DNA from: Ectopseudomonas composti | GTDB lineage: Bacteria; Pseudomonadota; Gammaproteobacteria; Pseudomonadales; Pseudomonadaceae | Assembly: GCA_946886245.1 (NCBI GenBank) | Contig: CAMPIF010000315.1 | Location: 1 to 5,683 of the forward strand | Direction of reading: 5' to 3' | DNA: 5,683 bases | The notes under the pieces: model-generated | What the model was told of the DNA's origin: nothing | Seen by the model: the letters and a program-made list of their open reading frames with translations, nothing else | Databases searched by the model: none | Shown: in pieces, positions 979 through 5,683 of the stretch | Layout of the letters: each line of letters starts with the position of its first letter | How positions within the stretch are numbered: the stretch's first letter is position 1 | Position numbers and translations under genes: made by a program

Positions 979-1437
979 ATGATCAATGCCAAACTGCTGC
1001 AACTGGTAGTCGACGCCTCCAACGATGGAATCGTGGTGGCCGAGCAGGAGGGCGACGACAACATCCTGATCTATGCCAACGCGGCGTTCGAACGCCTGAC
1101 CGGCTACGCCAGTGACGACATTCTCTATCAGGACTGCCGCTTCCTGCAGGCAGGCGATCGCGCGCAGCTTGGGCTGCAGGCCATTCGCGACGCGGTCAAG
1201 GCGAACAAGCCCTGTCGGCAGATCATTCGTAACTACCGCAAAGATGGCAGCGCGTTCTGGAACGAGCTGTCGATCACGCCGGTGCTCAACGAAAGCGACC
1301 AACTGACCTACTACATCGGTATCCAGAAGGACGTCACCGAACAGGTCGAAGCCAAGCAGCGGGTGCGTGAGCTGGAGGCACAAGTAGCCGAGCTGAAGGC
1401 CGAGCTGGCGCGCCTTGAAAAGCTGACGAACGGATAA
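979..1437 (+). CDS. Short LOV blue-light photoreceptor (PpSB1-LOV-like)
   Basis: A 152-residue protein made of one LOV (PAS-type) domain plus a C-terminal helix and no output domain. The photoactive site is YQDCRFLQ, with Cys53 placed to form the flavin C4a adduct under blue light. Expected FMN contacts are present: Arg54, Gln57, Arg61, Asn85 and Asn95 (in RNYRKDGSAFWNE) and Gln116 (in IGIQKDVT). Residues 119-149 form a predicted J-alpha coiled coil with Leu132, Val136, Leu139, Leu143 and Leu146 in heptad positions, suggesting a parallel dimer; this tail is about ten residues longer than that of P. putida PpSB1-LOV (142 aa). Residue 66, Arg in PpSB1-LOV and linked there to very slow dark recovery, is Leu here. 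Short LOV proteins must signal through a partner; in P. putida they are needed for class II LitR-controlled light induction, and such a regulator lies 1.1 kb away. It is followed after 54 bases by the PilZ-like gene on the same strand. Confidence 0.95.
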   Translation: MINAKLLQLVVDASNDGIVVAEQEGDDNILIYANAAFERLTGYASDDILYQDCRFLQAGDRAQLGLQAIRDAVKANKPCRQIIRNYRKDGSAFWNELSITPVLNESDQLTYYIGIQKDVTEQVEAKQRVRELEAQVAELKAELARLEKLTNG

Positions 1438-2121: not shown

Positions 2122-3075
2122 TCAGGTATCCAGATGACCCGCCAGGAACTGCTGCATACGCCGCTGCATCAGGCGCCCTTCGTTACCCAGGCAGGCAATG
2201 GGCGAACCGGCCAGACTCTCCTCCGCCAGATCGGCACTGTCACCGGCCAGCAGCAGCGGACATGCCAGACCCAGCGCCAGGCGCGCCAGTTGCCGTGGGA
2301 ACTCCTCGCCTGGCGGCTGGTTGCTGAAGATCACCAGCGCCTGGGGCTGCATGCGTTCACAGACCAGGGCCAGATCGGTCATGGGTACGCCAGGCCCCAT
2401 CACCGACACGCCGACGTCCTGATTGCCCAACAACAACGCCGCAACCAGCAACTCCAGCTCCCGACAGTGGCCCGGTAGCGCCACCAGCAGCACGCGCTCA
2501 CGCGAGTCATCGCGCCCCAACTGCAGACGCTGCCAGCAGCGCCCACGCAGGAAGCCGTCGAGCATCAGCCACTCGCCGCGCAGGCCGACTTCGTCCTGGC
2601 GCAGCAGCAGTTCCTGCCAGACCGGCATGAAAATGTCCTGGAACACCACCGGCAGCGGGTAGCAGGAGAAAATCTGCCCATACAAGCGCTCGAGACGAGG
2701 CTCATCGAAGTTCTGCAGCGCACTGCGCACCTGGCCCTGCCACTGACTCCAGTCGTCACTGCTGACTTCGTTGTAGGCCGGCGTGGCGACGCTGCGAGTG
2801 CTGGCGCTCTTGGCCAGGATCGAACCGACCTTGCTGACCGCGACGCCGCGCTCGATCCAGGCGAGGATGCTGCGCACGGCATCGATATCGGCCTGTGAAT
2901 AGAGACGATGGCCGCTGTCGGTACGCGTCGGTTGAATCAGGCCGTAACGCCGTTCCCAGGCACGCAGGGTGACCGGATTGACGCCGGTAAGGCGAGAAAC
3001 CTCACGGATGGGGAACAGCTCTTCCTGCTTCAAAGCGCTGGACGCAAGCGATGTGACGGAGGCGAGTTCTGGCAT
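2122..3075 (-). CDS. Class II LitR (CarH/PplR-like) MerR-family regulator
   Basis: A 317-residue transcription regulator. Residues 21-87 are a MerR winged helix (FPIREVSRLTGVNPVTLRAW, then RRYGL, GHRLYS and a helix ending near VGSIL). Residues about 113-188 match the four-helix bundle and 194-316 the Rossmann-like cobalamin domain of CarH/LitR. The cobalamin residues are lost: the W...EH motif reads Leu158...Glu-Trp169, and ExHxxG reads H-C-R-E-L-E (203-208), so the His ligand is Arg205. This is the class II, B12-independent form. In P. putida such proteins (PplR1-3) act with short LOV photoreceptors on light-induced genes, and PplR3 lies beside PpSB1-LOV as here. The start is uncertain: ATGs also occur at 3111 and 3087; 3075 is chosen because a -10-like TACAAT at 3110-3115 would place the earlier ATG upstream of the transcript, and the extra residues are hydrophobic and unlike the family. 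No start has a good Shine-Dalgarno. Divergent from DUF393. Confidence 0.9.
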   Translation of the reverse strand: MPELASVTSLASSALKQEELFPIREVSRLTGVNPVTLRAWERRYGLIQPTRTDSGHRLYSQADIDAVRSILAWIERGVAVSKVGSILAKSASTRSVATPAYNEVSSDDWSQWQGQVRSALQNFDEPRLERLYGQIFSCYPLPVVFQDIFMPVWQELLLRQDEVGLRGEWLMLDGFLRGRCWQRLQLGRDDSRERVLLVALPGHCRELELLVAALLLGNQDVGVSVMGPGVPMTDLALVCERMQPQALVIFSNQPPGEEFPRQLARLALGLACPLLLAGDSADLAEESLAGSPIACLGNEGRLMQRRMQQFLAGHLDT

Positions 3076-3109
3076 GGCTTCGGGCATCACGGCAACGAAT
3101 ATGAGAGGC

Positions 3110-3138
3110 ATTGTAACCCAGCTAAGGCAGGCTTACAT
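3110..3138. promoter_or_regulatory. Overlapping face-to-face promoters, regulator / DUF393
   Basis: On the plus strand TTGTAA (3111-3116) and TACATT (3134-3139) are 17 bases apart, placing a start near 3146, about 20 bases before the DUF393 ATG. On the minus strand the same bases read ATGTAA (3138-3133) and TACAAT (3115-3110), again 17 apart, giving a start near 3103 for the regulator. Each strand's -35 would be the other strand's -10, so the two promoters could not be used at once. The elements match consensus only moderately, and an alternative regulator promoter begins at TTGTAC (3156-3151). Confidence 0.4.
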
Positions 3139-3155
3139 TGTGCAAGAACTGTACA
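3132..3155. promoter_or_regulatory. Candidate LitR/PplR direct-repeat operator, regulator / DUF393
   Basis: TGTACA (3150-3155) and CTTACA (3132-3137) are separated by exactly 12 bases, the spacing of the P. putida PplR1 site, recalled as T(G/A)TACA-N12-TGTA(C/T)A. The left half-site has two mismatches read on the plus strand; on the minus strand it reads TGTAAG. A further TGTAAC lies at 3112-3117. The site covers the -10 region of the DUF393 promoter and lies upstream of the regulator start, so binding could control both genes and give autoregulation. Confidence 0.5.
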
Positions 3156-3165
3156 AGGTGATTTC

Positions 3166-3603
3166 ATGCATAACCTTGCTTGGCCATTGACCCTCTACTA
3201 CGACGGCGACTGTCCGCTCTGCGCACGCGAAATCGGCATGCTCAGGCGACATGCGTCACCCCTGCGACTGCTGCTGGTGGATATTGCTGCCGCTGACTTC
3301 GATCCGCTGCCGCTGGGGGTATCCCTGAGCGCGATGCAGGATCGTCTGCACGCACGCTGGGCCGATGGCGAATGGGTGCTGGGCCTTGATGCCAGCCTGT
3401 GGAGCTGGGAGGCGGCCGGACTGGGAAGCTGGGTGGCGCCGCTGCGCTGGCGACCGCTGCGTCCGCTGCTGGAGTGGGGCTATCGCTTGTTCTGCCGCCT
3501 GCGCCCCCATTTGGCACGACTCCCGCACCCTGACGGTGCAGCACGTTGCCAGGAAGGCAAGGCTTGCTCCGGCCGACGCCCGCCATCAGGCAGGGCTGGC
3601 TAA
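3166..3603 (+). CDS. DUF393 / DCC-family thiol-disulfide oxidoreductase-like protein
   Basis: A 145-residue protein of the DUF393 family (YuxK-like), named for the DxxCxxC motif. Here YYDGDCPLCAREI (residues 11-23) has Cys16 and Cys19 in the expected place just after the first strand, as in a thioredoxin-like redox centre. DGEWVLGLDA (67-76) is the second conserved block. Substrate and partners are unknown for the family. The ATG at 3166 is chosen because AAGGTG lies five bases upstream and family homology begins within ten residues; the open frame extends further upstream, through the oppositely oriented regulator. The tail after residue 120 (HPDGAARCQEGKACSGRRPP) is Arg/Gly/Cys-rich and low in complexity, and may be a drifted C-terminus; the usual final family motif is weak. 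The gene probably belongs to the light-controlled set because a TGTACA box sits 11 bases before its ATG. Confidence 0.85.
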   Translation: MHNLAWPLTLYYDGDCPLCAREIGMLRRHASPLRLLLVDIAAADFDPLPLGVSLSAMQDRLHARWADGEWVLGLDASLWSWEAAGLGSWVAPLRWRPLRPLLEWGYRLFCRLRPHLARLPHPDGAARCQEGKACSGRRPPSGRAG

Positions 3604-3641
3604 TTTCCGCAAAACGGGAATAATCCTTGCTGCGTTCTTCG

Positions 3642-3666
3642 TCGAGCACACCACCCCCGTGCTCGA
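3642..3666 (+). other. Perfect 8-bp inverted repeat between DUF393 and ABM genes
   Basis: TCGAGCAC (3642-3649) and GTGCTCGA (3659-3666) are exact reverse complements around a nine-base loop. No T-run follows (the next bases are TCGCGCCC), so it is a poor intrinsic terminator. It could slow transcription, protect the mRNA end or bind a dimeric protein. The 114-base gap has no convincing promoter and no TGTACA box, which suggests the ABM gene is read at least partly from the DUF393 promoter. Confidence 0.4.
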
Positions 3667-3717
3667 TCGCGCCCAATGCCGTACCCCGGCTGACGGCAAC
3701 ACTCGAGGAGATACACA

Positions 3718-4284
3718 ATGTCCCCCGTTACCTTGATGGTGGCGCGCCGCGTTGCCAATGGCCGTTATCACGATTTCATCGCCTGGCTACGTGAAGGCGA
3801 ACACCTGGCCACCGACTTCCCTGGCTACCTCGGCTCCGGCGTACTGGCACCGCCTGCCGGTGATGATGAGTTCCAGATCGTTTTCCGTTTCAGCGACGAA
3901 CAGACCATGGCTTCCTGGGAGCACTCGGCCTCGCGCCAGGCCTGGCTGCAGCGTGGTGCGGGACTTTTTGCCCAACCGCAGGAAAAGCGCGCTGTCGGCC
4001 TTGACGCCTGGTTCGGCAGTGCCCTGCGACGGCCGCCGCGCTGGAAGCAGAGCGTGGCGATCTGGCTGGCATTCTTTCCGGTATCCCTGGGCTTCAACCT
4101 GCTGCTGGGCCCCTGGCTGGCCGACCTGTCGCTGCTTGCCCGCGTGCTGTTGTCGACGCTGGCCTTGACGCCACTGATGACCTACTGGTTCATCCCACTT
4201 TCCACTCGCCTGCTCGAGCCCTGGCTGCAAGGTAACTACCCGCAGCGCCTGGGCAGACGAACCGCCAGCATCGGCAAGCCCTGA
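3718..4284 (+). CDS. ABM-domain protein with two C-terminal membrane helices (COG3224-type)
   Basis: A 188-residue protein. Residues 1-95 form an antibiotic biosynthesis monooxygenase (ABM) dimeric alpha/beta-barrel domain: VTLMVARRV (4-12), a helix with FIAWLREGEHLATDFPGYLGSG (20-41), then EFQIVFRFSDEQTMASWEHS (51-70), where W67 and the following helix are characteristic. Residues about 112-134 and 138-160 are hydrophobic enough for two membrane helices; WFIPLSTRLLEPWL (157-170) matches the conserved end of COG3224 proteins. The ABM domain should face the cytoplasm. The family has no settled substrate; heme-degrading and quinol-oxidising ABM relatives exist, but no specific active-site residues can be claimed here. 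The start is secure: AGGAG (3706-3710) is seven bases before the ATG. A hairpin terminator follows 18 bases after the stop. Confidence 0.85.
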   Translation: MSPVTLMVARRVANGRYHDFIAWLREGEHLATDFPGYLGSGVLAPPAGDDEFQIVFRFSDEQTMASWEHSASRQAWLQRGAGLFAQPQEKRAVGLDAWFGSALRRPPRWKQSVAIWLAFFPVSLGFNLLLGPWLADLSLLARVLLSTLALTPLMTYWFIPLSTRLLEPWLQGNYPQRLGRRTASIGKP

Positions 4285-4302
4285 AAGCATCCATTTCTAT
4301 CC

Positions 4303-4333
4303 ATCGGCCAGCCTCGTGCTGGCCGATTTCGTT
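4303..4333 (+). terminator. Intrinsic terminator after the ABM gene
   Basis: ATCGGCCAGC (4303-4312) pairs perfectly with GCTGGCCGAT (4318-4327) around the loop CTCGT, and the downstream arm runs into TTTCGTT. The GC-rich 10-bp stem is strong; the T-tract is short and broken, so some read-through toward folM is possible. The stem is symmetrical, but no T-rich tract favours the minus strand and no gene there needs it. Confidence 0.7.
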
Positions 4334-4375
4334 GTACAAATGGCCAATAGCTGTACAAAAGCAACAGTGCGTACA
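4332..4375. promoter_or_regulatory. Cluster of three TGTACA half-sites, possible LitR operator/promoter
   Basis: TGTACA occurs at 4333-4338 and 4352-4357 (13 bases between), then CGTACA at 4370-4375 (12 bases after the second). The second pair matches the recalled PplR1 site with one mismatch. The first two boxes also make a promoter-like pair, TTGTAC (4332-4337) and TACAAA (4354-4359) with a 16-base spacer, readable toward folM. The cluster lies immediately after the ABM terminator, about 230-270 bases before the folM start. Confidence 0.5.
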
Positions 4376-4482
4376 GGTAAAGCACAAAAAAGCCCTCTCC
4401 GCCTCATCATTAAAAAACCTTAAAATTCAGCGCCATAGGCAAAGTCACTGAGCCTGATAGCAAAACCACATGCCGCACATGG

Positions 4483-4509
4483 TTGTACAACTTGCGACTC
4501 TGGTATAGC
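4483..4509 (+). promoter_or_regulatory. Candidate light-controlled promoter of folM-folE
   Basis: TGTACA (4484-4489) and GGTATA (4502-4507) are 12 bases apart, matching the recalled PplR1 direct repeat with one mismatch. The same bases supply TTGTAC (4483-4488) as a -35 and TATAGC (4504-4509) as a -10 with a short 15-base spacer, the kind of imperfect spacing often found at MerR-family-controlled promoters. Transcription would start near 4516, giving a folM leader of about 85 bases. Confidence 0.5.
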
Positions 4510-4528
4510 TTTATCCACGGTCTGGTGA

Positions 4529-4566
4529 GTACCGCCTGCCACTGGTCAGGTATCCCGAGGCGGTAC
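4529..4566 (+). promoter_or_regulatory. Stem-loop in the folM leader
   Basis: GTACCGCCT (4529-4537) and AGGCGGTAC (4558-4566) are exact reverse complements with a 20-base loop, 35 bases before the folM ATG and just after the predicted transcription start. No T-run follows, so it is not a normal terminator. It may stabilise the mRNA or regulate it. It resembles no riboswitch class I recognise. The AT-rich stretch 4381-4430 between this leader and the upstream TGTACA cluster holds no gene or clear promoter. Confidence 0.4.
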
Positions 4567-4601
4567 GAGCCAGGCCTTCATTTCTTTCCCACGAGTTGCA
4601 C

Positions 4602-5312
4602 ATGAGCGCTGCCAACTTTCCCATCCTGATCACCGGCGCCGGCCAGAGGGTCGGCCTCTACTGCGCCGAACGTCTGCTCGACGAAGGCCAGCCGGTGATC
4701 ATCAGCTACCGCCAGCACCGCGACGATATTGCGCGGCTGCGTGAGCGCGGTGCCATCGCCCTGCAGGCTGATTTCAGTGATGAGAGCGGCATCATGGCGT
4801 TCATCGAACAGCTCAAGGCGCAGTGCAGCGGCCTGCGCGCGATCGTGCACAACGCCTCGCAGTGGCTGGCGGAAACGCCAGGCGAAGAAGCGCAGGTCTT
4901 TCGTCAGCTGTTCAGCGTGCACATGCTCGCGCCCTACCTGATCAACCTGCATTGCAGCGAGCTGCTGCTGCAGTCGCAACACGCCGACATCGTGCACGTG
5001 AGTGACGACGTGGTGCGCAAGGGCAGCGCCAATCGCCCCGCCTACTGCGCCAGCAAGGCGGGCCTGGAAAGCCTGACGTCGTCGTTCGCCGCGCGTCTGG
5101 CGCCACGCATCAAGGTCAACACCATCGCGCCGGCGCTGCTGATGTTCAACGATGGTGACGACGACGCCTACCGGACCAGGACCCTGGCCAAATCGGCGCT
5201 GGGCATAGAACCCGGCCCGCAGGCCTTCTACCAGACTTTGCGCTACCTGCTGGACAACGCCTACGTAACCGGAACGACCCTTACCCTCAACGGCGGCCGC
5301 CACCTCAAGTGA
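4602..5312 (+). CDS. folM: FolM, dihydromonapterin / dihydrofolate reductase (SDR family)
   Basis: A 236-residue short-chain dehydrogenase/reductase that reduces 7,8-dihydromonapterin to tetrahydromonapterin with NADPH, and dihydrofolate weakly, in the cytoplasm. The N-terminal cofactor loop is ITGAGQRVG (residues 10-18), the FolM form of TGxxxGxG with Arg16, and Arg37 after the second strand fits NADPH preference. VHNASQW (82-88) carries the NAS block; the catalytic set is Ser134 (VHVSDD), Tyr148 and Lys152 (YCASK). [10 protein letters not shown] (173-182) and [14 protein letters not shown] (222-235) are typical C-terminal blocks. The ATG at 4602 is preferred over a TTG two codons earlier; the upstream ACGAG is a weak ribosome site. 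It is 22 bases ahead of folE, an operon also found in P. aeruginosa as recalled, where tetrahydromonapterin has been linked to phenylalanine hydroxylase. The only promoter candidates seen carry TGTACA boxes. Confidence 0.93.
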
Positions 5313-5334: not shown

Positions 5335-5683
5335 ATGAGCCAACCCCTTTCCCAGCAATACCGCGAAATTCTCGTAGGCCTCGGTGAAAACCCGGAACGC
5401 GAGGGTCTGCTCGATACGCCCAAACGCGCAGCCAAGGCCATGCAGTATCTGTGTCATGGCTACCAGCAGTCGCTGGAGGAGATCGTCAACGGCGCGCTGT
5501 TCGAGTCCGACAACGACGAGATGGTGATCGTCAAGGACATCGAGCTGTACTCGCTGTGCGAGCACCATCTGCTGCCCTTCATCGGCAAGGCGCACGTCGC
5601 CTACATCCCCACCGGCAAGGTGCTCGGGCTGTCCAAGGTGGCGCGCATCGTCGACATGTACGCGCGGCGCCTGCAGATCCAGG
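5335..5683 (+). CDS. folE: GTP cyclohydrolase I (FolE), 3' part outside window
   Basis: The first 116 residues of type I GTP cyclohydrolase, which converts GTP to 7,8-dihydroneopterin triphosphate, the first step of folate and pterin synthesis, as a cytoplasmic homodecamer. Residues 20-31 ([12 protein letters not shown]) are the conserved helix region, and [19 protein letters not shown] (74-92) is the active site: Cys75 and His78 are zinc ligands and His77 is catalytic, by comparison with Cys110, His113 and His112 of E. coli FolE; the third ligand Cys should lie past the window edge. [18 protein letters not shown] (98-115) follows as expected. AGGA (5324-5327) sits seven bases before the ATG. 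This is the zinc-dependent FolE1, not FolE2. It follows folM by 22 bases and should share its promoter. In P. putida a folE is reported as light-induced, consistent with the upstream boxes. Confidence 0.95.

Follow-up and report, generated by a model that had tools for sequence, protein, structure and literature searches.

The TGTACA boxes in this piece of Ectopseudomonas composti DNA are best read as operators of the light regulator encoded next to them, as the first-pass annotation had proposed and as has been published for the P. mendocina ortholog (PMC9758184). On this explanation the boxes would serve an ortholog of the repressor PmlR2 whose repression is lifted by a blue-light LOV protein, with a second operator between pmlR2 and the DUF393 gene; taken whole, we give it a probability of about 0.8. 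The core claim, boxes as light-regulator operators with folM-folE as a target, is already in print. What is new is an upstream array before folM, an 11-bp pair at pmlR2/DUF393 and a revised list of targets. The present analysis directly established the boxes with their spacing and conservation.

The window, i.e. the whole stretch of 5,683 nucleotides analysed, carries in order the genes for a DUF985 cupin, a flavodoxin, a short LOV protein, a PilZ-like protein, a MerR regulator, DUF393 (DCC1-like), ABM, FolM and FolE. The closest of the 38 loci fetched, from Pseudomonas sp. 8O (L001), has nine genes with 91-100% protein identity. One contig labelled as a Comamonas metagenome-assembled genome (L005) bears a Pseudomonas locus with identities and coordinates equal to those of L004, and is probably a mislabelled or contaminated bin. 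The features used below are:

979-1437, plus strand: gene of the short LOV blue-light receptor, PmSB-LOV ortholog, with a PAS domain; adjoins pmlR2 as in PMC9758184
2122-3087, minus strand: pmlR2 ortholog, encoding a class II LitR MerR-type repressor with a MerR HTH only; 321 aa with the ATG at 3087
3111-3116, minus strand: TACAAT, probable -10 of pmlR2; ATTGTA in 20 of 20 near-alignment rows
3134-3139, plus strand: TACATT, probably the DUF393 -10; a weak -35, TTGTAA, would lie at 3112-3117; shares bases with CTTACA
3139-3155, no strand: operator candidate TGTGCA-N5-TGTACA (the 11-bp pair) between divergent pmlR2 and DUF393; conserved
3166-3603, plus strand: DUF393 / DCC1-like thiol-disulfide oxidoreductase gene (Pfam PF04134), likely target
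4303-4327, plus strand: terminator-like hairpin 3' of ABM, between ABM and the array, from a consensus scan only
4333-4338, no strand: outermost TGTACA, 13 bases away from 4352 and weakly conserved
4352-4375, no strand: upstream array TGTACA-N12-CGTACA, 1 mismatch; right box 114 bp before the 4484 box
4381-4386, no strand: AGCACA, apparently the degenerate remnant of a third half-site (most near relatives have AGTACA), 11 bp beyond CGTACA
4484-4489, no strand: TGTACA, proximal folM operator over the -35 region; published site, gap of 12 conserved
4501-4509, plus strand: TGGTATAGC, probable extended -10 of folM judging from conservation, including the GGTATA 'half-site' at 4502-4507
4602-5312, plus strand: folM (dihydromonapterin reductase), SDR Pfam; P. 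mendocina counterpart light-induced
5335-5682, plus strand: folE (GTP cyclohydrolase I) by Pfam, cut by the window end

The regulator belongs with a described system. Its longer open reading frame extends to 3111; the ATG at 3087 is the probable start, from agreement with the published length of PmlR2, a class II LitR repressor of 321 aa (PMC9758184). No B12-binding Pfam family was matched by the window regulator at E 1e-3, and for PmlR2 itself a weak B12-binding_2 match has been reported (PMC9758184). As in class II LitR/short-LOV gene pairs, a MerR HTH regulator with no match to a B12-binding domain thus lies near a short LOV gene, and counting in the translated frame places Cys53 of the LOV protein within DCRFLQ. 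The neighbourhood matches the pmlR2 / PmSB-LOV / folM-folE-folX locus of P. mendocina NBRC 14162, and the gene arrangement, the regulator length, the half-site and the folM site with its 95-bp distance are all as described there (PMC9758184).

In P. mendocina, PmlR2 footprints TGTACA-N12-TGTACA at P6650, a promoter with two perfect N12 sites that is repressed in vitro by PmlR2 and released by the illuminated LOV protein (PMC9758184). The folM promoter is also gel-shifted by PmlR2, the most stable shift being that of P6650; for folM the evidence is binding by gel shift only (PMC9758184). Blue light raised folM 2.4-2.5-fold and folE 1.6-3.3-fold, and the changes were small for pmlR2 (1.4-1.5-fold; near-constitutive) and for the LOV gene (0.9-1.1) (PMC9758184). 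The folM site printed there, TGTACA-N12-GGTATA at 95 bp before the gene, is window 4484-4507, with the folM ATG at 4602. The proposal that folM-folE is a target of the light regulator therefore has a published counterpart in site, gel shift and light induction. In the open-licence literature we found no account besides PMC9758184, either of TGTACA light-inducible boxes in Pseudomonas or of this locus by its protein names. The string CGTACA is absent from its main text and DUF393 is not named there; no mention of the upstream array or the 11-bp pair was found in the available text. One hypothetical gene named in the region (PME15555) could be DUF393 or ABM (PMC9758184).

The five TGTACA positions reported in the first-pass annotation (663, 3150, 4333, 4352 and 4484) are all exact, and the excess over chance holds, dinucleotide shuffles containing 0.41 copies on average with 0 of 200 reaching five. 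Four boxes are indeed intergenic and the fifth, 663, lies inside the flavodoxin gene. That one in five is coding is what a reading as chance copies of a 6-base palindrome would have in its favour, but the shuffles and the spacings fixed across clades make that reading extremely improbable. Conservation speaks against chance for 3150, 4352 and 4484, and only weakly for 4333; 663 could be chance. Non-conservation in related species had been named as an outcome that would refute the proposal; the 3150, 4352 and 4484 boxes are kept across clades in most of the loci compared.

The 12-base spacing given in the first-pass annotation for PplR1 of P. putida KT2440 is correct: the consensus T(G/A)TACA-N12-TGTA(C/T)A is quoted in PMC9758184, and we scored pairs by mismatches to it. 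Both 4352-4375 and 4484-4507, before folM, have 1 mismatch; 3132-3155 and the coding 663-686 have 2 each. The claim that three boxes have an N12 partner thus stands for 4352 and 4484 and falls for 3150, whose partner CTTACA (3132) is no better than that of 663 and erodes in near relatives whose DUF393 is not intact, so we rejected it as a half-site. With an N12 partner of the same quality as that of 3150, the box at 663-668 is a useful internal negative control. The window resembles the PplR1 regulon in its half-sites and N12 rule, but differs in also having an N5 pair at DUF393/pmlR2 and N13 pairs in the folM array; a further difference is that the folM upstream regions of three more distant Pseudomonas loci (L035-L037) are without boxes.

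We compared the region before folM in 38 rows (the window plus 37 loci, L038 being without folM). The proximal box followed by GGT(A/T)TA is present in 33 of them, and every one of the 33 has a gap of exactly 12. The five rows without the box (L032, L033 and L035-L037) still have the LOV and regulator genes as neighbours. L032 and L033 have neither box nor GGT(A/T)TA; L035, L036 and L037 retain TGGTATAG, but the 345 bases leading up to folM contain no TGTACA. The persistence of TGGTATAG there without TGTACA favours reading GGTATA as belonging to an extended -10, in which case the TGTACA box covers the -35. A simple promoter scan returned no sigma-70-type match in 3000-4650, so the -10 and -35 readings rest on conservation. 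A single box at the proximal folM operator fits weak regulation compared with the two perfect N12 sites of P6650.

Further upstream lies the right box of the array (CGTACA at 4370). Of the 33 boxed rows, 31 have it, with a score of at least 5/6, at a distance of 113-115 bp from the proximal box; it is degenerate in L015 and missing in L026. Several other clades have TGTACA-N13-TGTACA at the array position. Among 398 Pseudomonadaceae genomes, which partly overlap with the 38 loci, 53 contain the proximal motif preceded by GTACA at one of 31 positions (93-123 bases upstream), and in 30 loci fetched from these, folE is found in 30/30 and folM in 29/30. In L103, pmlR2 and folE lie close together, the proximal motif has a gap of 13 and a folM match is absent from the fetched piece. 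Starting instead from the proximal motif TTGTACAA-N10-TGGTWTAA, 30 of 40 genomes also have GTACA 93-123 bases upstream, and these 30 belong to the 53; the 10 others have none in that range, and one of these 10 is among the fetched loci. We fetched 30 of the 40 places: folM is downstream in 30/30 and the upstream GTACA is present in 29/30. As a control on the same 30 loci, 44 other ranges of equal width contained GTACA in 0-2 of 30 (43 ranges) or 10 of 30 (one range).

We infer from this conservation that the array helps folM. The distances of the upstream box are 111-116 in 32 of 66 cases, 100-105 in 28 and longer in 6, with none at 106-110; they are one base off for a few N11 matches, and the rows are related, so that the clustering yields no probability. 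Strict helical phasing of the array was considered and rejected: L090 and L097 are at 101, 13 bp from 114, some of the 100-105 distances simply reflect the third half-site in the near-clade array, and the rows are related. Looping between array and proximal box is a guess. A fuller, speculative proposal, which we consider unlikely as it stands, would make folM a two-operator switch, in which a weak proximal box and a stronger array about 11 helical turns upstream are joined by a looping LitR oligomer, and a flexible half-site grammar of 11, 18 and 19 bp would let one family use both CarH-like and N12 operators. Clades also share a short conserved stretch at about 4425-4440, between the array and the proximal box; in relatives it reads like CTCAGCAAAATAGGC.

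The array at 4352-4386 might instead be no folM element but a relic, once the operator of a divergently transcribed gene of the light regulon (DUF6482) that is missing from the window lineage. A DUF6482-like minus-strand ORF does start near the array in L018, L020-L024, L088, L089, L096, L099 and L112 (the family assigned by Pfam for L018 only and by eye for the others, the L021 and L023 ORFs being shortened), and elsewhere DUF6482 is the first gene of a photolyase-related operon that has these boxes too (L072) and adjoins boxes in L068. Against this, the near clade keeps the array at about the same distance from folM with ABM on the other strand and no DUF6482-like ORF. The array is also kept in L025, L030, L085, L086 and L091, which have no minus-strand ORF of 60 aa there, and in L028, L031, L100 and L110, where the ORFs are not DUF6482-like by eye. 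We regard a relic as rather unlikely and retain the array as a probable folM element.

Between pmlR2 and DUF393, the box at 3150 pairs better with TGTGCA at 3139 (N5 spacing, 1 mismatch in 12). Scanning with up to 2 mismatches allowed turned up 2 N5 pairs where 0.05 were expected, a count reached by 1 of 200 shuffles. Of 36 unique sequences, the window among them, 29 have the pair at a score of at least 10/12 and 7 lack it. All 21 unique DUF393-bearing sequences have it, as do 7 of 14 without DUF393; L010, with a truncated DUF393 and counted apart, has it too. It is missing in 7 of 37 relatives (L026, L031, L032, L033 and L035-L037), in which the LOV and regulator genes are likewise adjacent. 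Among later-added loci, of which 15 of 30 were examined (3 of those 15 showing no regulator end), the pair occurs in 6/6 with DUF393 and 0/6 without. Within the near clade (regulator at least 85% identical), seven loci without intact DUF393 have changes in 0-2 of the 12 half-site positions, compared with 4-13 of 20 and 5-8 of 14 in the flanks.

The pair thus follows DUF393 between clades and outlives it within one, so DUF393 is more likely to be the main target, and pmlR2 may be another. The alternative that the pair at 3139-3155 serves autorepression of pmlR2 and not DUF393 gains from the sparing of the half-sites in those seven near-clade loci; it is weakened by the distant DUF393-less loci without the pair (the seven relatives named above, L085, L086, L091, L100, L103 and L110) and by the small published light change of pmlR2 (PMC9758184), and we think it improbable, if not very much so. 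The same small change leaves the earlier claim that the regulator targets itself weak, yet the survival of the pair beyond DUF393 in several genomes speaks for it. We infer that DUF393 is a target; the first-pass proposal to this effect is plausible, but through the N5 pair and not an N12 operator. Consistent with TACATT as its -10, columns 3132-3138 (CTTACAT) are altered in 7/7 near-clade loci without intact DUF393 and in 0/11 with DUF393; against it, L025, outside the near clade and without DUF393, keeps CTACAT. ABM, suggested as a further target, is not supported: the boxes lie behind its stop codon and the terminator-like hairpin (the consensus scan found 3 such hairpins in 3000-4650 against 1.3 expected), and there is no TGTACA between DUF393 and ABM.

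The 11-bp TnnACA repeat at 3139-3155 is like the operators of CarH/CarA, the B12-type LitR proteins, where tandem 11-bp repeats of TnnACA are the rule, three or more of them and some degenerate (PMC9304148). Here TnnACA occurs 11 bp apart twice on the minus strand and only once on the plus strand, and only two repeats are in register. The regulators also differ, CarH using B12 (PMC9304148) and the window regulator having no B12-binding Pfam match at the threshold given above.

Genome-wide, 25 related genomes contain 152 exact TGTACA-N0-30-TGTACA pairs against 37 for a reversed control pattern. N12 is by far the commonest spacing, with 56 of the 148 pairs listed (of 152), in 24 of 25 genomes; among the same 148, N26 accounts for 14, N11 and N13 for 8 each, N9 for 7, N5 for 6 and the rest for 0-6 each. 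N26 is the linker beside the N12 sites of P6650-type promoters, and N9 comprises near-identical sequences in seven genomes, resembling one coding place. G023 and G024 have an identical sequence at their N5 pairs (two of the six), which looks coding in the one fetched (L075). For gene context, 20 box places were picked by choice. In these, N12 pairs lie before a TudS-DUF1722 gene, itself followed by a MerR-like gene (so classed by eye), and before a photolyase-related gene; DUF6482 with a photolyase-related gene comes after a cluster of N11, N5 and N12 pairs; N12 boxes also adjoin an FAD/amine oxidoreductase, an acyl-CoA dehydrogenase and two chemoreceptors, and mixed-spacing boxes adjoin DUF6482 genes. 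On the question raised in the first-pass annotation, whether genome-wide hits precede photolyase-type genes, some of these places agree; L075, inside a coding region, and L080, beside an unrelated secretion gene, do not fit.

The two chemoreceptor places, L064 (1514-1537) and L066 (1544-1567), have perfect TGTACA-N12-TGTACA pairs beside two methyl-accepting chemotaxis genes, one of them CHASE3-HAMP-MCP, which suggests that these chemoreceptors may be light-regulated. DUF6482 genes lie by boxes in L018 (5176-5469), L068 (1173-1475) and L072 (1205-1519, before the photolyase-related gene). In the light-induced pair PME7070-cryB of P. mendocina, the first gene has the same position as DUF6482 (PMC9758184), and we guess that PME7070 is a DUF6482 gene.

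The boxes might be sites chiefly for the paralogue PmlR1, or for the two paralogues together, rather than for the adjacent regulator. PmlR1 and PmlR2 share 70% similarity in their HTH domains, the P6650 operon is located near pmlR1, within its region (PMC9758184), and boxes of relatives precede the TudS-DUF1722 and MerR-like genes; yet PmlR2 itself gives the folM gel shift and the P6650 footprint described above, and we judge an assignment mainly or jointly to PmlR1 to be unlikely. The absence of the pair from 7 of 37 relatives and of the folM box from five rows, the 10 of 40 genomes whose proximal motif has no GTACA in the upstream range, the nearly light-independent pmlR2 and LOV transcripts and the small published folM induction also count against our explanation. 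Nevertheless, the adjacent PmlR2 ortholog remains the preferred regulator of the boxes.

In the dark, the repressor would occupy two places before folM-folE(-folX): the TGTACA over the promoter's -35 and the array about 114 bp upstream. Under blue light the short LOV protein would act as an anti-repressor and strip the repressor off, and expression of the pterin genes would rise a few-fold. At the 11-bp pair between pmlR2 and DUF393, DUF393 would be repressed and pmlR2 at most mildly tuned. Pterins and folates can serve as photolyase cofactors, so co-induction of their genes with photolyase-family genes makes sense. The pterin operon would thus be tied to blue light via an operator layout that recurs across Pseudomonadaceae.
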